A DNA stretch of 64,000 nucleotides from contig NZ_CP126093.1 of assembly GCF_030123065.1 (NCBI RefSeq), positions 3,850,001-3,914,000 on the forward strand, read 5' to 3'. Of the stretch, positions 47,688-60,384 are shown piece by piece (the first letter of the stretch is position 1; each line of letters opens with the position of its first letter). Origin of the DNA: Neobacillus sp. DY30 (lineage in GTDB: Bacteria > Bacillota > Bacilli > Bacillales > Cytobacillaceae). The notes beneath the pieces were generated by a model. That model saw nothing but the letters and a program-made list of their open reading frames with translations, was not told where the DNA came from and searched no databases. The translations under genes and the position numbers were made by a program.

Positions 47688-47910
47688 ACGAACCCCTTCT
47701 GCTCGAAGCCCAATCTTAATTTGTATCAAACTACCTATATTCTAACATATAAGTAAGAAAAAGCCGTTAGCCACTTTTTTATGCGTTACAATTAAAGACT
47801 TATTTGTTGAACAAGTAATCACCAATAACATGAAATTTAAACTCGTTTATTAATTTGTTTATTTAACTTACAAAAATATATTTACTTTTAGAAATTACAA
47901 ATTATAATTA

Positions 47911-47940
47911 AAATTACCTAGTATTTTCAGGTAATTTTTT
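47911..47940 (+). terminator. terminator-like hairpin in the spo0E-like leader
   Basis: AAATTACCT (47911-47919) pairs with AGGTAATTT (47929-47937), followed by more Ts, ending 20 bases before the spo0E-like start codon. No plus-strand gene ends upstream, so this would act as an attenuator in the leader of that gene if the promoter lies further upstream. Confidence 0.5.
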
Positions 47941-47959
47941 CCCGAACGGAGTAGAATAT

Positions 47960-48136
47960 ATGAATAAGAAAACGGACGATTTTACCCCTTCAAAAATTGT
48001 AATGGAAATTAATTCGCTGAGGATATATTTAGTCAATATTGGAAAAACGAAAGGTCTTACTCATCCAGATACGATAAAAATTAGTCAAGAGCTGGATTTA
48101 TTGATCAATAAATACCAGCATTCAAAAGTCTTATAA
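47960..48136 (+). CDS. Spo0E-like Spo0A-P phosphatase
   Basis: A 58-aa helical-hairpin protein with the Spo0E family signature ISQELDLLINKYQ at residues 41-53; the SQELD core is the catalytic motif of Spo0E, YisI and YnzD. These dephosphorylate Spo0A-P and delay sporulation. The N-terminal helix (KIVMEINSLRIYLVNIG) pairs with the second as in the family. GGAG precedes the ATG by 9 bases. It is divergent from a KinB-like kinase, so a kinase and a phosphatase of one phosphorelay sit side by side. It is too short for many gene finders. Confidence 0.88.
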   Translation: MNKKTDDFTPSKIVMEINSLRIYLVNIGKTKGLTHPDTIKISQELDLLINKYQHSKVL

Positions 48137-48424
48137 TTTATTTCATTTACTCTTTTTTGCCTTATCTCAACTTCGTTTTAATAACCGACAACATCGCCTT
48201 TACCCATATTTCATTCCCCCTTTATAAATCGTAACCAATTATGAATCACTAAAAATTATTCTTCAATTAGATTGCATCTTAAGTTGAATAGAAAAAGAAA
48301 ACAAAAGAAGCACTCAAAATTTTGAGCACTTTTAGAAATAAATTAAAGTAGGTTCGGGCTCCGTTTCACGCTTTAAGTGTTTTTAGTAAAAAAATGTCAA
48401 TCAGATATATTTTAACTTAAACTA

Positions 48425-48598
48425 TTACGTTTCTTGGTTATTGATTGTATTGTTAACTAAGTTTTGAGTTGCATCTCGAGACGAAACTGCCGGATTTTCA
48501 ATAGCTTGCTGCACGTAGTTTAAAGCGGACTGATTTATGTTTTTAAATATTTTCATTTTATTTTCAGGATCGTTCTGATTTCGATTACTTTCCTTCAT
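48425..48598 (-). CDS. hypothetical 57-aa protein
   Basis: A short hydrophilic protein (MKESNRNQNDPENKMKIFKN, then helices ALNYVQQAIENP and TQNLVNNTINNQ) rich in Asn and Gln. The start is ATG 48598, 8 bases after GGAGG; an ATG at 48613 lies on the binding site itself. No family is recognised. Its composition is like small Bacillus spore-associated proteins, which is only an impression. Confidence 0.65.
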   Translation of the reverse strand: MKESNRNQNDPENKMKIFKNINQSALNYVQQAIENPAVSSRDATQNLVNNTINNQET

Positions 48599-48810
48599 TG
48601 TCAATTCCTCCATTGTTTTCTTTCATCTTTTTATTCTTTGATTTATTTTGAAAAATAAACATACAATTCGCCGCATGTAATTCAGAGTCCTTTTTTACCT
48701 AACATTTCCTTTATCTTCCCTATACCATTGTGTATTTTATAGCACTAACTTATACTAAATAATGTAAGTTTATCTGAATGATTAATCAATAATATAAAGG
48801 GGGTAGTTTT

Positions 48811-49182: not shown

Positions 49183-49267
49183 AAACAAATTCAAGGGCAC
49201 AAGAAAATACATAATTCTTTTTATCTCAGGTCCCCATACTCCTCTATTAGGATCATTAAATTTAAAC

Positions 49268-49313
49268 AAAAACACTCACAAACGTTGTCGTTACAACATT
49301 TGTGAGTGTTTTT
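49268..49313. terminator. long bidirectional terminator
   Basis: Arms of 21 bases (49268-49288 and 49293-49313) with one mismatch and a 4-base loop contain AAAAACACTCACAAA and its complement. It separates the VOC gene from the convergent NAD(P)-binding gene. Its stem is nearly the same as that of the terminator at 21328-21358. Confidence 0.92.
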
Positions 49314-49318
49314 AAGTA

Positions 49319-49957
49319 TTATTCTGCTTCCCCAACTACTGTAAATCTTTCATTTATATGCTTAGGATTTTCGACTTCGTCCATTACAGCAATAGCAAAG
49401 TCTGCATAACTAATATAACTGTCACCTTTTGAATTAACGAGAAGGTGATCTTTCCCTGACTGGTAAGAACCTGTTCTTTTTCCTTCAGGATTAAATACAG
49501 CAGAAGGGCTGATAAATGTCCATGTTAAGTCCGCTGATTCCTGTAATTCTTGCAGATTCCTTCCTTGACCCATAGCCGTTGGTTTAACAAAATCCGGGAA
49601 TTCAGGAGTATCAATTAGTTTCACGGTTTTGTTCTCGTCGACAAAAAGACTTCCAGCTCCGCCAACAACGATTAATTTGGTACTTGTTCCTTTTAGTGCT
49701 TCAATTAACGCATGACCTGCATCGACGTGTGCTTGTTCCTCTCCAAGCGGTGCTCCAAAAGCGTTAATTACAACATCAAACGCATTTACATCACCAGTTG
49801 TTAATTCAAACACATTTTTCTCAATAGCGGCTGTATTTTTATCTTGAAGCTTAGACGCATCTCTTACAACTGCTGTTACATGATGTCCCCTGCTTACTGC
49901 CTCTTTCAAAATCAGACTTCCAGCTTTCCCACTTGCTCCTATAACAGCGATGTTCAT
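49319..49957 (-). CDS. NAD(P)-binding oxidoreductase (YwnB/NmrA-like)
   Basis: A 212-aa Rossmann-fold protein with GASGKAG at residues 7-13 and the YwnB-like segments VVINAFGAP, LIVVGGAGSLF and WTFISPSAVFNPEG. The family reduces or binds unknown small molecules and is often induced by electrophile stress. GGAGG precedes the ATG. It lies 19 bases downstream of the LLM oxidoreductase and is very probably the last gene of the decayed cat-like operon. Confidence 0.87.
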   Translation of the reverse strand: MNIAVIGASGKAGSLILKEAVSRGHHVTAVVRDASKLQDKNTAAIEKNVFELTTGDVNAFDVVINAFGAPLGEEQAHVDAGHALIEALKGTSTKLIVVGGAGSLFVDENKTVKLIDTPEFPDFVKPTAMGQGRNLQELQESADLTWTFISPSAVFNPEGKRTGSYQSGKDHLLVNSKGDSYISYADFAIAVMDEVENPKHINERFTVVGEAE

Positions 49958-49976: not shown

Positions 49977-51038
49977 TTATTTGCTTGTTGCTTTTTTCAC
50001 CACTGGCGCAACCTCAGTTGCTATTAATTCAATGTTTTTGACTACTTTATTATAAGGTAATCCGCCTATATCAACTTGTGCCAGGAAACGAGTATGGCCA
50101 AAAAGCTCATGTTGGCGAAGAATCTTTTCTACTATTTGCTGCGGACTCCCTACGAATAAAGCTGTATTTGGACTAGCCATATTTTCGAAGTCATCTCTTG
50201 ACATCCTTGTTCCCATTCCTCGTTGACGATTCACGTAGGACCAATAGTTCGAATAGTAAGGAAAGAATTCGTCTTTGGCTTGCTGTGTCGTGTTAGCAAG
50301 GAAGGTATGACCTGTTACACCCACTTTTAATACTTCAGGGGAATGACCTGCCTCCAACCCGGATTTTCGGTATATGTCCACAAGCGGCTTAAAACGCAAT
50401 GGATTACCACCTAAAATGGCCAGTGCCATGCCTACCCCGAATCTCCCTGCACGAACGGCACTTTCAGGGGTACCGCCAACACCAATCCAAATCGGCATTT
50501 GCTCCTGTAGCGGTCGTGGTGAAATTTCTGCATTCCTCAAGGAAGGACGAAAGTTTCCCGACCAAGTGACTTTCTCATTTTTGTTTAGTTTTAAAAGTAA
50601 ATCCATATGTTCGGTAAAAAGCTCATCATAATCATTTGTACTATACCCAAAAAGAGGGAATGATTCAATAAACGCACCTCGGCCTGCTAAGATTTCTGCA
50701 CGTCCGTCTGATAACAAATCCAATGTTGCAAAATCCTCGAATAAGCGAACAGGGTCAAGGGTACTTAACACACTGGTTGTACTCGTTAATCGAATGCGCT
50801 CGGTTACTTGAGCAATGGCAGACAAAATAACGGCTGGAGAAGAGACGGCATAATCTAACCGATGGTGTTCCCCTACCCCAAAAACATCCAAACCTGCTCC
50901 ATCAGCTAGCTTTGCAGCTTCAATGATTTCTTTCACTCGTTGGTGCGCTGTAATCGTTTTTCCTGTTAGAGGATCCGGACCAATATCTGCAAGTGTGTAG
51001 ATACCTATTTCAATACCGTTATGTTCAATCGTGGACAA
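49977..51038 (-). CDS. LLM-class flavin-dependent oxidoreductase
   Basis: A 353-aa luciferase-like monooxygenase family protein (TIM barrel; GVGEHHRLDYAVSSPAVILSA, RIRLTSTTSVLSTLDPVRLFEDFATLDLLSDGRAEILAGRG in sequence, IWIGVGGTPESAVRAGRFG). Such enzymes use FMNH2 and oxygen or act as F420- or FMN-linked reductases; the substrate is unknown. The start is TTG 51038, 7 bases after GGGGAGGT. It follows the catE-like remnant by 17 bases in the same operon. Confidence 0.9.
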   Translation of the reverse strand: MSTIEHNGIEIGIYTLADIGPDPLTGKTITAHQRVKEIIEAAKLADGAGLDVFGVGEHHRLDYAVSSPAVILSAIAQVTERIRLTSTTSVLSTLDPVRLFEDFATLDLLSDGRAEILAGRGAFIESFPLFGYSTNDYDELFTEHMDLLLKLNKNEKVTWSGNFRPSLRNAEISPRPLQEQMPIWIGVGGTPESAVRAGRFGVGMALAILGGNPLRFKPLVDIYRKSGLEAGHSPEVLKVGVTGHTFLANTTQQAKDEFFPYYSNYWSYVNRQRGMGTRMSRDDFENMASPNTALFVGSPQQIVEKILRQHELFGHTRFLAQVDIGGLPYNKVVKNIELIATEVAPVVKKATSK

Positions 51039-51055
51039 TCAGATACCTCCCCATC

Positions 51056-51318
51056 TTATACTGCTAACTCAACTCGATCTCCAGATGGATTATGAGTTAC
51101 AAATTTATTATTTTCTTCCATAACATCGGCCATTACATTATCAGGCTGTTCTAGAGACAAAATACTTTTTTTACCATTGCTTGTTAGTTTGGCTGTTGAA
51201 GCTGTTTGTTCTAAAATATCGAAACCAAACATCTTGATAAAATGTTAAAGAATGCTGCAATTTTCTACTTGATTTTAACATGCTCTGCAAATGTTGTTGG
51301 TTTACTACGAAATCCCAT
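51056..51318 (-). pseudogene. catE-like VOC ring-cleavage dioxygenase remnant
   Basis: Reading three frames in turn gives pieces of one VOC protein: SKPTTFAEHVKIK (ends at a TAG), HSLTFYQDV, then GFDILEQTASTAKLTSNGKK and SILSLEQPDNV, and finally THNPSGDRVELAV before a stop. Together they match the N-terminal module and the extreme C-terminus of CatE-type extradiol dioxygenases, with at least two frameshifts and most of the middle deleted. A GGAGAG site still precedes the ATG at 51318. The position after a catD-like gene matches the catDE order of B. subtilis. Confidence 0.78.
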
Positions 51319-51342
51319 AAATAGCTCTCCAAGAGTCATTTC

Positions 51343-51738
51343 TTATGATTGAAAAATCTTTTGATCCAATGAGATTTGCGATTTATCAGCTAATACAAAA
51401 TAAATGGATATCACAAGTAAAATAAGTTCCAGTTCATACCCTGCCATTTGACCATTGCCGAGAAACCCAAGTGAAAGTTTCGCAGAAAAAATAGCACCTG
51501 CCATAATTAGCGCAAATAATACAGAAACAATTCGTGTTCCGAGTCCTAGAATCAAAGCAATACCGCCTATTAGTTCAATAAGGGCCACTACATACGCCAT
51601 AAACCCAGGAATTCCAATACTGTCAAAAAAGCCTGCTGTATTTGTAATTCCACCTTGAAACTTTGATAATCCGTGAATAAAGAATGTAAGACCTAAAACA
51701 GCTCAAACGAAAACTTTTCCTAATTCATTTTTATTCAT
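51343..51738 (-). pseudogene. catD-like DoxX membrane protein with in-frame stop
   Basis: The full-length frame from ATG 51738 reads MNKNELGKVFV, stop, AVLGLTFFIHGLSKFQGG and on through MAYVVALIELIGGIALILGL to a normal C-terminus. The TGA at 51703-51705 stands where DoxX proteins have Arg (CGA to TGA would explain it). Everything else resembles the four-helix CatD/DoxX subunit. An 85-aa fragment could start at ATG 51600 but would lack the first helix and has no good binding site. Confidence 0.85.
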
Positions 51739-51760
51739 TTGTTATGATCCTTTTCTCAGT

Positions 51761-51815
51761 TAGTTACTTTATGTAAGTTAGTATATTTGTGTAATTATAT
51801 TTTGTCAAGTAACTA
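51761..51815 (-). promoter_or_regulatory. promoter and CatR-type operator of the cat-like operon
   Basis: On the minus strand TTGACA (51803-51808) and TATACT (51780-51785) are 17 bases apart, a near-consensus sigma-A promoter. Perfect inverted arms TAGTTACTT (51761-51769) and AAGTAACTA (51807-51815) flank it, the second overlapping the -35. The adjacent HxlR-type regulator is the probable binder. Confidence 0.65.
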
Positions 51816-51883
51816 TATTATTATTTGTAATTTAAATTATGTTTATTGTGGTATACTAGACAATATAGAGAGGTGTTATTACT

Positions 51884-52210
51884 ATGAAGCAGCCGACAAT
51901 TTGTCCACGATTTGAAAAAGCGATTTCGCTTTTAAGTCAACGATGGACTGCGTTAGTTATCTATCAATTATTATCAGGACCGCAAAGATTTAGTGAAATT
52001 CAATCAGCGATTGGTATAAGTGGAAAAGTATTATCAGAGCGTTTAAAGGACTTAGAACACCAAGATGTTGTTAAACGTAAAGTGATACCGGAAACACCTG
52101 TGGTCATTGAGTATTCATTAACAGAAAAAGGTCTTTCACTTGAACCGATTCTAAGAGAAATCGAAAAATGGTCCCAGCTTTGGGTTCCACCTGTAAGTAT
52201 AAGTGAGTGA
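51884..52210 (+). CDS. catR: HxlR-family redox regulator, CatR/YodB-like
   Basis: A 108-aa winged-helix MarR/DUF24 (HxlR) protein: LLSQRWTALVIYQLLSGPQR, SEIQSAIGISGKVLSERLKD, then EYSLTEKGLSLEPILREIEKW. Cys7 in ICPRFEKA corresponds to the conserved N-terminal cysteine through which YodB and CatR sense quinones and diamide in B. subtilis, where they repress catDE. Here it diverges from catD-like and catE-like remnants, the same partnership. Its own promoter has an extended -10 (TGGTATACT at about 51850). The symbol is by similarity and context. Confidence 0.85.
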   Translation: MKQPTICPRFEKAISLLSQRWTALVIYQLLSGPQRFSEIQSAIGISGKVLSERLKDLEHQDVVKRKVIPETPVVIEYSLTEKGLSLEPILREIEKWSQLWVPPVSISE

Positions 52211-52230
52211 TCCAACTATATTTCATTACT

Positions 52231-52285
52231 AAAAAGACATTTTCACAGTGATTCCTAATTGAATCACTTGTATAAATGTCTTTTT
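52231..52285 (+). terminator. terminator of the catR-like gene
   Basis: Outer arms AAAAAGACATTT (52231-52242) and AAATGTCTTTTT (52274-52285) enclose a second stem AGTGATTC/GAATCACT. It lies 20 bases after the regulator stop and ends in Ts. Confidence 0.88.
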
Positions 52286-52437
52286 CTTCATGACAGGATA
52301 AATTTATAAATACTAGAAGTCAGAATCATTCCAGTTCAGAGCACCCATAAATACTAAACTACTTACTTTAAAAACTATAGGAGCTTAGGATAGTTCGTAT
52401 ACTGAGCAGACAAAGTTTGGTAGACTTTTGTTGAAGT

Positions 52438-52453: not shown

Positions 52454-52490
52454 AAACGTTTAATAAGGTTATGAAATTGGAGGTAGAATG

Positions 52491-53723
52491 ATGGGACGAA
52501 CGAATGAATTGGCACACCGTATGGCAAGCAAAACAATTAAACTTATGGATGGGGCAGGAAATCCTGTAGCCGGAAAAGAAGTCGTTCTTAGACATACAAA
52601 CCATAAGTTCCTATTTGGCTGTGGCATTTTTGATGTGATTGATGTTGCAAACAAAAATGTACCCGCTGACCGCCTTGCGTTTCAGGAGGAGAAACTTAAT
52701 AAGTTCCTTGAAGTCTTTAACTCAGCCACACTGCCCTTTTATTGGGGAACGTTTGAGCCTGAAAAAGGAAAACCGCGGACAAAAGAATTAAAAGCTGCTG
52801 CTCAGTGGTTAAAAGAAAGAAAAATATCAGTGAAAGGACATCCTCTCTGCTGGCATACGGTAACGGCTCCATGGCTGTTGGAGATGAGCAATGAAGAAAT
52901 CCTTAAAGCACAGTTTGCTAGAATTGAACGTGATGTTTCAGACTTCAAAGGTCTAATAGATACGTGGGATGTAATCAATGAGGTCGTAATCATGCCAATC
53001 TTTGACAAATATGACAATGGTATCACACGAATTTCTCAAGAACTTGGCCGTGTTGGAATTATTAAAGAAATGTTTGCAAAAACACGCGAATATAATCCTT
53101 GTGCGACACTATTGTTGAATGATTTTAATACATCGATTAATTATGAAATCTTAATTGATGGATGTTTACATGCAGGTATTCCAATTGATGCCATAGGGAT
53201 TCAGTCACATCAGCATCAAGGATATTGGGGACGTGAGAAATTAGAAGAAGTTCTCGACCGTTTCTCGCACTTTGGTCTCCCTCTCCACTTTACAGAAAAC
53301 ACATTAACTTCTGGTCATCTCATGCCTCCTGAAATTGAAGATTTGAATGATTATCAAATCCCAGAATGGCCGTCAACCCCTGAATTCGAAGAACGTCAGG
53401 CAAAAGAAGTCGAAGAAATGTATACCATTCTGTTTAATCATCCTCAGGTAGAAGCTATCTCAACCTGGTCCTTCAGTGATGATGGTGCATGGCTTGGTGC
53501 TCCTGCTGGATTTATCAGAAGTGATAATAGCCCAAAACCGTCTTATGAAGTATTAAAGAAGCTGATTAAAGGTGACTGGTCTACAAATGTAACGTGTAAG
53601 ACAGATGACAACGGAATCGTTTCTTTTAAGGGATTCCTTGGTGATTATGATCTTGTTTGTGAAGACAAGAAAGTGAGCTTTACCTTAGATAAAAATGCTG
53701 CAACCGAACAGTTCGTAATTTAA
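52491..53723 (+). CDS. GH10 endo-1,4-beta-xylanase-like enzyme
   Basis: A 410-aa glycoside hydrolase 10 protein. After an N-terminal beta segment of about 40 residues (TIKLMDGAGNPVAGKEVVLR) comes a TIM barrel with acid/base Glu in WDVINE (about residue 164), nucleophile Glu in LHFTEN (about 269), GHPLCWH and WSFSDDGAW. A short beta-rich tail follows. No signal peptide is visible, so it is either intracellular, acting on imported xylo-oligosaccharides, or exported another way. The second of two adjacent ATGs (52491) is 7 bases after GGAGG. A cre site upstream suggests CcpA control. Confidence 0.9.
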   Translation: MGRTNELAHRMASKTIKLMDGAGNPVAGKEVVLRHTNHKFLFGCGIFDVIDVANKNVPADRLAFQEEKLNKFLEVFNSATLPFYWGTFEPEKGKPRTKELKAAAQWLKERKISVKGHPLCWHTVTAPWLLEMSNEEILKAQFARIERDVSDFKGLIDTWDVINEVVIMPIFDKYDNGITRISQELGRVGIIKEMFAKTREYNPCATLLLNDFNTSINYEILIDGCLHAGIPIDAIGIQSHQHQGYWGREKLEEVLDRFSHFGLPLHFTENTLTSGHLMPPEIEDLNDYQIPEWPSTPEFEERQAKEVEEMYTILFNHPQVEAISTWSFSDDGAWLGAPAGFIRSDNSPKPSYEVLKKLIKGDWSTNVTCKTDDNGIVSFKGFLGDYDLVCEDKKVSFTLDKNAATEQFVI

Positions 53724-57702: not shown

Positions 57703-58489
57703 TTACCTCAGCCCTCCCCATATAAGCCTCTATTACAGCAGGATGATTCTGAATCACTTCAGGAGGACCTTCTACTAACTTTTCTCCAAAATTTATTACA
57801 GTAATTTGGTTTGACAATGTATTTACTAGGTGCATATCGTGAGCAATAATTAAAATCGTAATGCCTTGTTCACTGACCTGTGTAAATAGATTCATAAGCT
57901 CTTTTGTTTCTTTCTGATTCATACCAGCAGTAGGTTCATCGAGTAATAATAACCGTGGATTTGTTGCTAAAGCTCTGGCAATCTCAACACGTCTTTGACT
58001 TCCATAGGATAGTTTGGCTGCGTACTCATGCCGCATATCCCACAAACCAACGAATTTTAATATTTCTTCAATACGTTCCCTTGCCTGCCGTTCCTTGTTC
58101 CGAAAGTTCTTTGTCCGGAATAAAGCAGGGAGAAGTTTTCCACCTGTAAAAAGATAGGTTCCTATTAATACAGTTTCAAAGACTGTCATATCAGGAAATA
58201 ACCGGATATTTTGGAAGGTACGTGATACCCCTTGCTCGGCAATTTTATCTGGTCTCAATGAAGTAATATCCTGATTTAATAATTGTATTTTCCCTTCATC
58301 TGGCGTAATAACCCCTGTGATGAGGTTAAATAAGGTGCTTTTCCCAGCTCCGTTTGGACCGATAATCGCATGAATATTGTTTTGCGAAACCGAAAATGTT
58401 AAATTGTTAACTGCCTTTACTCCCCCAAAAGCCTTTGAAAGATTGTCGACGGTTAAGATAGCTGAATTAGTAACATAATTATTGTTCAT
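57695..58489 (-). CDS. livG: branched-chain amino acid ABC transporter ATPase (LivG)
   Basis: A 264-aa ABC ATPase of LivG type: Walker A GPNGAGKST, signature LSYGSQRRVEIARAL, Walker B LLLLDEPTAGMNQKE and H-loop IIAHDMHLV. It overlaps livM by 11 bases and livF by 8, so translation is coupled through the operon. Confidence 0.95.
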   Translation of the reverse strand: MNNNYVTNSAILTVDNLSKAFGGVKAVNNLTFSVSQNNIHAIIGPNGAGKSTLFNLITGVITPDEGKIQLLNQDITSLRPDKIAEQGVSRTFQNIRLFPDMTVFETVLIGTYLFTGGKLLPALFRTKNFRNKERQARERIEEILKFVGLWDMRHEYAAKLSYGSQRRVEIARALATNPRLLLLDEPTAGMNQKETKELMNLFTQVSEQGITILIIAHDMHLVNTLSNQITVINFGEKLVEGPPEVIQNHPAVIEAYMGRAEVNA

Positions 58490-59504
58490 AACTCAACCCC
58501 TCTTTCTCTAACGCTGTTTTTTCTATTCGTGAATTTTTTTGAAAAAGACGTTCTGTTACTAACTTTAATAACCCCATGATTCCCTTAGGGAAAAACATAA
58601 TCATGACGACGATCAAAAATCCATAAATTAACATTCTTAATTCTGGTGTCTCCCGAAGTGCTTCTGAAGAAACGGTAAGAATCGATGCACCGATTAAGGC
58701 ACCCGCTATTGAACCTTGGCCACCAATCATGACCATAGTTAAAATCGTTACAGACATTCCAAAAGCAAATGTTTCCGGACTTACAACACGTAAGAAATGA
58801 GCATATAAAGCGCCAGCCGCGCCGCAAAAGGAAGCCGATATGGTAAACATCATTACTTTTGTCTTAAATACAGGTATTCCCATCGCTTGAGCTGCAAGTT
58901 CATCATCTCTTATGGCCGTACAGGCACGGCCAAATCCTGATTTAATGATTAACCTTGTTACTAAAATACCTAAAAGTACAAATATTAATAATAAAGGGTA
59001 ATAATCGTGATATTGTAAAAACATTAGCTCAAATGATCCTATTTTAATAGATGGAGGGGCAGGTATTCCGGCAATCCCCATTGGTCCTCCTGTAAGATCA
59101 TTCCAGTTTAAAAATACTAGCCAGATGATCGTTCCAAATGCTAGTGTCGCCATTACTAGGTATTCTTCGATTAATTTCAATCCAATAAAACCAATGACAA
59201 ATCCAATTAAGGCGGTTATGACAATGGAAAATGGAAGATTCACCCAGAGAGAAAAACCTAGTTTTTTAGCCAAAATGGCAGCAACATATGCTCCGATCCC
59301 AAAGAATGCTCCATGTCCAACGGAAACTTGACCAGTATATCCAACAATGAGGTCTAGACCTAATGCAAGGATGGCGTAGATCAGGATAAGATTAATAACA
59401 TACATAAAGTAAGGATTCACAACTGCAAGAGGCAGGAGAAATAATGCAATCCCTCCAAAAATGAACACGATTTTTCGAAAACCTGTTTTTTTGATTAATT
59501 CCAT
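58479..59504 (-). CDS. livM: branched-chain amino acid ABC permease (LivM)
   Basis: A permease of about 341 aa with roughly ten membrane helices and the LivM signature LDLIVGYTGQVSVGHGAFFGIGAY, plus GFGRACTAIRDDELAAQAMG as coupling helix. ATG 59504 (MELIKKTGF) follows GGGGGAGAAAGG; an in-frame ATG at 59546 would lie within livH and is unlikely. It pairs with LivH. Confidence 0.94.
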   Translation of the reverse strand: MELIKKTGFRKIVFIFGGIALFLLPLAVVNPYFMYVINLILIYAILALGLDLIVGYTGQVSVGHGAFFGIGAYVAAILAKKLGFSLWVNLPFSIVITALIGFVIGFIGLKLIEEYLVMATLAFGTIIWLVFLNWNDLTGGPMGIAGIPAPPSIKIGSFELMFLQYHDYYPLLLIFVLLGILVTRLIIKSGFGRACTAIRDDELAAQAMGIPVFKTKVMMFTISASFCGAAGALYAHFLRVVSPETFAFGMSVTILTMVMIGGQGSIAGALIGASILTVSSEALRETPELRMLIYGFLIVVMIMFFPKGIMGLLKLVTERLFQKNSRIEKTALEKEGLSYEQ

Positions 59505-59517
59505 CCTTTCTCCCCCC

Positions 59518-60384
59518 TTATACCTTCTGTTGAACGATTTTCCCAAAGATTCCTTGAGGACGAACTAATAAAATGAATAATAAGATGACCATGGCAACGG
59601 CATCTCTATAACCCGAAGAAATAAAACCTGCAGCAAAACTTTCAATTATTCCTAGCAATAAGCCGGCAATCATAGCTCCTGGAATATTTCCCATTCCCCC
59701 CATAACCGATGCAGTAAATCCTTTTAGTCCTGCAAATACACCCATCGTTGGATATACTAGGAATACAGGACCTACCAAAATACCCGCAAGTGCACCAACA
59801 GCTGAACCGATTGCAAAAGTAATCGAAATGATTTTGTTGGCATTAATACCCATTAATTGCGTAGCCTGAATGTTTTGTGAGGCTGCTTGGACTGCTTTTC
59901 CCATAAGGGTTCGATTGATAAATAATTCTAAAACAATCATGACTAGAATGGTGACTATGATAATATAAACATAGTGCTGATTGATCAGCATATCTCCAAT
60001 ACTTATATTCTTAGAAAGAAATGGAGAGGTTAATCTTTCCGGTGTGGCCCCCCAAATATATTGAGCTAAATTTTGTAGGACAATGGAGATCCCAATAGCT
60101 GCAATGAGTAAATTTAATTTAGGTGCACTTCGCATTCGCATGTAAACCACTTTTTCCATTAAATACCCTAGTAATGCTCCAGCACATACGCCTCCAATAT
60201 AAGCAAGCCATAAAGGTGTATCTAATAATAGAAGATAAAGGGACACGAATGCCCCTCCCATATATACTTCACCATGTGCAAAGTTTATAAAACGAAGCAC
60301 ATTCCACACCATCGTGTAGCCAATCGCCATTAACGCGTATATGCTGCCGAGGACTATTCCATTTATTAATTGGTCAAAGAACAC
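59518..60384 (-). CDS. livH: branched-chain amino acid ABC permease (LivH)
   Basis: A 288-aa permease with eight or so membrane helices and LivH hallmarks: LINGIVLGSIYALMAIGYTM at the start, FINFAHGEVYMGGAFV, and AVQAASQNIQATQLMGI as coupling helix. The start is GTG 60384, 6 bases after GGGGG. It lies 10 bases after livJ. Confidence 0.94.
   Translation of the reverse strand: MFFDQLINGIVLGSIYALMAIGYTMVWNVLRFINFAHGEVYMGGAFVSLYLLLLDTPLWLAYIGGVCAGALLGYLMEKVVYMRMRSAPKLNLLIAAIGISIVLQNLAQYIWGATPERLTSPFLSKNISIGDMLINQHYVYIIIVTILVMIVLELFINRTLMGKAVQAASQNIQATQLMGINANKIISITFAIGSAVGALAGILVGPVFLVYPTMGVFAGLKGFTASVMGGMGNIPGAMIAGLLLGIIESFAAGFISSGYRDAVAMVILLFILLVRPQGIFGKIVQQKV

Follow-up and report, generated by a model that had tools for sequence, protein, structure and literature searches.

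Neobacillus sp. DY30 harbors a presumably quinone/catechol-responsive operon that has probably been caught early in the loss of its first two genes, and by this loss trimmed to a flavin-monooxygenase module. The operon is located within a window of 64 kb, the whole stretch of DNA that was analyzed, out of a genome of 6.14 Mb forming a single contig; positions refer to the window unless stated otherwise. Beginning at the promoter, a catD-like gene, the relic of a catE-like gene, a gene for a luciferase-like flavin monooxygenase (LLM) and an NADH-flavin-reductase-like gene follow each other on the minus strand, and a terminator-like hairpin stands at the end. The regulator gene on the plus strand (51884-52210) is divergently orientated to this unit. 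The names catD and catE were adopted from a first-pass annotation of the window and from similarity. Bacillus sp. OK048 was the nearest relative compared, followed by types of Neobacillus niacini.

Both genes at the head of the unit are broken. The catD-like (DoxX) gene (51343..51738, minus strand), identified by reading of the open reading frame (ORF), domain match and alignment, comprises 132 codons including the final stop and contains a single in-frame TGA at codon 12 (51703-51705), at which all of the 12 other aligned catD sequences encode arginine. No frameshift was seen between positions 51343 and 51738. The catE-like dioxygenase relic (51056..51318, minus strand), delimited by alignment to relatives, still has its ATG start at 51318 and its stop at 51056. 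Codons 1-17 are kept, and the stretch from codon 18 to codon 32 has lost four bases through small deletions, which MAFFT draws as 2+2 and which by eye read as 1+1+2. Codons 33-64 are retained in the original frame, followed by an in-frame jump to codon 260. Compared to OK048 and the niacini-type relatives, codons 65-259, i.e. 195 of 283 codons or 585 bp, are deleted; the junction lies at approximately 51130/51131, with the deletion ends counted by hand. This deletion takes most of both glyoxalase-type stretches (residues 11-123 and 175-281 of the intact protein). Thus, the stop in catD and the frameshifts and large internal deletion in catE, which had been claimed in the first-pass annotation, were confirmed. 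Neither an intact DoxX-type CatD, on account of the TGA, nor an intact catechol dioxygenase CatE is encoded by the operon, as would be expected of a functional catDE.

Within this group, catD seems to erode repeatedly. Out of 34 loci whose LLM is at least 80% identical, 25 contain no catD and three a partial one, while the six nearly full-length copies include that of DY30 with its stop and the shortened one of locus L145. In the catD tree, DY30 is placed with moderate support beside Lederbergia citri, B. fonticola and genome G014, a position that fits ordinary descent, although the sister genome OK048 is devoid of catD; a recent arrival of the gene from elsewhere was not supported. As a separate observation, the catD copies of loci L145 and L037 are shortened by internal deletions.

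The control region has remained intact. The regulator of 108 aa matches the HxlR (MarR/DUF24) domain PF01638 at 102.3 bits (cut-off 20.8), its nearest solved protein is YodB (5hs7, E 6.5e-28), and the N-terminal Cys7 is present in 12 of 12 aligned rows including DY30. By its HxlR domain and the conserved cysteine it is assigned to the CatR/YodB-type redox repressors, for which binding to the operator and release by quinones are predicted. The promoter TTGACA-17-TATACT of the catDE-LLM unit (51780..51808, minus strand) is kept in relatives; with 11/12 of the consensus, it ranks first among 13 promoter-like sites of this region. Since a total of 13 is near the mean of shuffled sequences (9.7, sd 3.2; approximately one sd above), only the top-scoring site counts. 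One operator-like block, TTACTTGACA (51803..51812, minus strand), overlaps the -35 box, and another, ACTTACATAAAGTAA (51764..51778, minus strand), follows directly after the -10 box. When 25 intergenic regions, taken from hand-chosen loci with the regulator adjoining, were aligned, these two proved to be the best-kept parts; a further conserved block, AGTATACCACAA (51846..51857, minus strand), is situated on the regulator side.

The 15-mer ACTTACATAAAGTAA has only one exact match in the 6.14 Mb genome. With up to three mismatches, the composite operator was found upstream of 63 of the 93 LLM loci described below (a set with the best 80 of 285 species matches), compared to 0 of 465 mononucleotide-shuffled upstream regions, 1 of 93 reverse strands, 1 of 93 downstream regions and 0 of 93 LLM genes. 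One mismatch in the 15-mer adds a single site in DY30 (59398-59412, within the ORF 58479-59546). Attempts were also made to identify further regulon members in the same genome by their operators. Up to two mismatches gave 22 + 17 sites versus 28 + 23 in the reversed control, and these sites were dismissed as noise because they are fewer than in the control.

The two genes behind the relics are open. The LLM gene (49977..51038, minus strand) encodes 353 aa from a TTG start preceded by GGGGAGG. Its product can be assigned to the luciferase-like monooxygenase family by its matches to Bac_luciferase (PF00296, 192.6 bits) and to the solved relative 2i7g (E 1e-110). The nearest subfamily model, TIGR03858 (Atu2307/SP_0267 LLM subfamily), gave 429.4 bits, which is below its cut-off of 462.25. 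The NAD(P)-binding, NADH-flavin-reductase-like protein (49319..49957, minus strand; 212 aa, GGAGG upstream) matches NAD_binding_10 at 65.5 bits and the 'putative NADH-flavin reductase' 4r01 at E 2.8e-54. Ribosome-binding sites are thus recognizable for both genes. Behind the reductase gene, a hairpin search revealed a terminator-like structure (49268..49313, minus strand) with a 20-pair stem and a T-rich tail, and no terminator was found on the minus strand between promoter and LLM. In these respects, too, the first-pass annotation was right: regulator with Cys7, promoter and operator arms are intact, and both downstream genes are open. The unit runs from the promoter through LLM and reductase to the hairpin. 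The hairpin region (49265-49314) also resembles a dispersed palindromic repeat, of which copies with 83-89% identity occur at four other places of the genome (C1:1255505, 2928965, 3002932 and 3927120).

To place the operon among its relatives, 93 LLM loci were compared, including DY30 and two second copies within the same loci. They were drawn from 118 stretches (20 of relatives, the best 80 of 285 species-collection matches and 18 further stretches of the genus) and had to share at least 65% identity over at least 300 aa; identical genes were removed, and loci in which LLM is broken or incomplete, e.g., L152 and L156, were dropped. The order regulator, [catD], catE, LLM, reductase recurs among the relatives. 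OK048 exhibits the same gene order with a full-length catE, and its LLM and reductase are 91% and 92% identical to those of DY30. In this set with its best 80 of 285 species matches, catE is full-length at 56 loci, partial at two (DY30 and N. niacini MER TA 87) and lacking at 35, 'full-length' here and for the other genes meaning alignment coverage rather than an open frame; the frames of the L088 catE and the L038 reductase seem broken. A divergent regulator lies within 2.8 kb at 50 loci, and catD is matched over most of its length at 21, including the TGA-bearing copy of DY30 and the shortened one of L145. Flavin-reductase-like genes were recognized within 900 bases at 41 loci (26 of the FMN_red type, PF03358, and 15 of the DY30 type). 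Such a gene was not recognized at 52 of the 93 loci, and the operator is absent at 30, so that neither link is obligatory. Out of the 63 operator-bearing loci, again with the best 80 of 285 species matches, 45 possess a full-length catE and 18 do not. Among these 18, the operator of L119 is weak and far from LLM, and at L080, L093 and L097 catD separates the operator from LLM. Conversely, catE occurs without the operator at 11 of the 93 loci.

These counts, which show LLM and often a reductase beside full-length catE, indicate that both are old companions of this gene. The proposal of an operon changing its job could therefore not be upheld: the two downstream genes are already members of the operon in relatives carrying it intact, and the operon of DY30 has been shortened, not given a new job.

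As in DY30, the regulator, the exact operator, LLM and the reductase gene are kept in N. niacini MER TA 87 (L142/L063), where catE is a C-terminal relic. Its deletion differs from that of DY30, as it begins at most about 30 bases after the operator and ends at approximately codon 203, and the remaining catE contains a frameshift. By sequence comparison, MER TA 87 has lost catE separately from DY30. No catD relic was found at the locus, and further catE-like genes, searched for in the draft genome down to E 1e-10, were absent. Counted from the aligned LLM start, the operator 15-mer begins 34 bases upstream in Bacillus sp. HNG and B. timonensis AF060A6; a related regulator (72-73% identical to that of DY30) lies elsewhere in the genome, beside an open catE-like gene (61-62%). 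Operator and LLM without catE between them recur in other genera, so that this arrangement can be stable. The reverse of DY30 was also encountered: at L152 (genome G072), LLM is broken into two pieces with one TAA, and catE and reductase are matched over their full length. In Sporosarcina thermotolerans (G082:C1:298680-299515), the catE-like gene consists of two overlapping pieces and is possibly a broken catE.

We propose that the ancestral unit consisted of a divergent CatR/YodB-type repressor, a promoter whose operator comprises two blocks, [catD], catE, LLM, a flavin reductase and a terminator. Modification of Cys7 by quinones or thiol oxidants would release the repressor and thereby switch on the unit. 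In DY30, transcription presumably passes the dead catD/catE stretch into LLM and the reductase gene, whose products probably act as a two-component flavin monooxygenase in which the reductase would provide the reduced flavin. Cleavage of the ring may fall to an unlinked, intact catE-like paralogue of 281 aa (G000:C1:703952-704785), which is 53% identical to the OK048 protein and might buffer the loss. A second catD-like gene was detected at genome positions 3440226-3440612 between hydrolase-like and dioxygenase-like ORFs; judging by eye, we take its surroundings to be an mhq-like cluster. This copy might likewise stand in for the broken catD. The paralogue's neighbors are, as we assume, MhqD-, MhqP- and DODA-like.

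The decay of catD and catE in DY30 is recent, since the relics still look constrained. Codon models of our own script were fitted on fixed trees, with a separate tree for catD. They gave omega values on the DY30 branch of 0.08 for LLM (from 13 rows), 0.03 for the regulator (from 12, as L139 lacks one), 0.05 for the reductase (from 10, without L038, L139 and L064), 0.14 for the catE relic (12 rows and 81 codons, without L142) and 0.06 for catD (13 rows). An omega of 1 fits worse by 26.6, 14.0, 19.5, 7.3 and 6.6 lnL units, respectively. The dN/dS of approximately 1 that characterizes an old, neutrally evolving pseudogene was thus found for neither relic. The raw count by codon position leans towards some relaxation in the catE relic, where 9 of 14 DY30-specific changes affect positions 1 and 2, versus 2 of 13 in OK048, 13 more changes being ambiguous. 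For the catE relic of MER TA 87, omega is 0.24, and a value of 1 costs 4.6 lnL units.

Because the decay is so recent, the constraint on LLM cannot be assigned to the time after the loss, and retention by selection is unreadable from DY30. We therefore did not accept the dN/dS values of LLM, reductase and regulator as proof that these genes were retained after the decay, given that the relics themselves still look constrained and the test has little power; the same applies to MER TA 87. The first-pass suggestion that the promoter was kept to drive the downstream enzymes is plausible insofar as other genomes have operator and LLM without catE, but this cannot be shown from DY30 itself.

The little time elapsed since the lesions arose, to which the constrained look of the relics points, would also suit an operon that is plainly decaying as a whole, with catD and catE first and LLM, reductase and regulator next, their intactness reflecting recency only. 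LLM is indeed disrupted in L152 and the frame of the reductase gene in L038, and loci without a recognized reductase are common (52 of 93, in the set with the best 80 of 285). Nevertheless, we regard this course as rather unlikely. Operator and LLM without catE recur in other genera and can thus be stable, and the omega values of LLM, reductase and regulator (0.08, 0.05 and 0.03) are not raised, albeit in a test of low power.

Far less probable is an artefact of sequencing or assembly, by which the TGA and the small deletions would be mere errors. The near-normal substitution pattern of the relics and the small number and clustering of the minor lesions would agree with it, but an internal deletion of 585 bases, which by itself accounts for the loss of 195 of the 283 catE codons, does not arise from base calling. 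Furthermore, only four stretches of more than 450 bases in the 64-kb window, among them 51039-51883 and one that overlaps an rRNA gene, contain no ORF of 90 aa or more, and the remaining window is densely open, which makes a general frameshift problem unlikely. That one of the leftover frames, the 85-aa C-terminal DoxX piece or the 58-aa CatE piece carrying the in-frame deletion, is made and used is hardly credible: it would agree with the preserved frame across the large catE deletion and with the absence of relaxation in what is left of catD, but neither ATG is preceded by a recognizable ribosome-binding site, and most of both glyoxalase-type stretches of CatE is gone.

Operons of this kind are known from B. 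subtilis and S. aureus, and the early loss of catD and catE ahead of an LLM module that is still intact represents a variant. The catDE operon of B. subtilis is under repression by three regulators, CatR, YodB and Fur, among which CatR is the principal sensor of catechol; CatDE additionally aids in coping with catechols derived from bacillibactin (PMC6212828). CatR is a MarR/DUF24 repressor that senses via a redox-active Cys7 (PMC6943732, PMC6798810). Compared by gene kind rather than identity, DY30 shares with this system catD, the catechol dioxygenase gene catE and a Cys7 repressor. The portions of the B. subtilis report consulted mention no LLM gene in the operon (PMC6212828), whereas LLM and the reductase gene follow the broken catD and catE in DY30. 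The QsrR regulon of S. aureus, which is reportedly induced 25- to 121-fold by methylhydroquinone and includes an FMN-linked monooxygenase, holds the operon catE-SACOL0409-azoR1 (PMC6798810). As far as these accounts go, both systems have a YodB-family Cys-based quinone repressor and a ring-cleavage dioxygenase gene, a middle gene and a reductase gene, but catE is broken in DY30. SACOL0409 may be the FMN-linked monooxygenase of the regulon and a relative of LLM. The product of azoR1 is presumably another kind of reductase than that of DY30. Titles and abstract openings of the open-licence PMC literature mentioned neither an LLM gene as part of a CatR operon in Bacillaceae nor such a decay.

The DY30 locus would thus represent an operon early in gene loss whose sensor and promoter are intact, and its relatives show other stages of seemingly the same process. 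The comparison also suggests that a flavin monooxygenase which has received little study often belongs to the response of soil bacilli to quinone stress. More tentatively, and as a possibility that we do not favor, LLM and not the dioxygenase might be the core payload of the quinone-responsive operator across Bacillaceae. It would then belong to an undescribed flavin-dependent branch of quinone/catechol detoxification, in which catD and then catE are dispensable and operons are repeatedly trimmed.

Some further features were recorded in the window. A stretch of approximately 1.1 kb (47730-48810) contains no ORF of at least 90 aa but short ones of, e.g., 58 and 62 aa, and adjoins a gene that by eye is histidine-kinase-like. 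Positions 1-523 on the minus strand hold the beginning of a 16S rRNA gene truncated by the window edge. Directly behind the regulator gene, a GH10-family gene is located at 52488-53723, and an inverted repeat (52223-52293) lies between the two.
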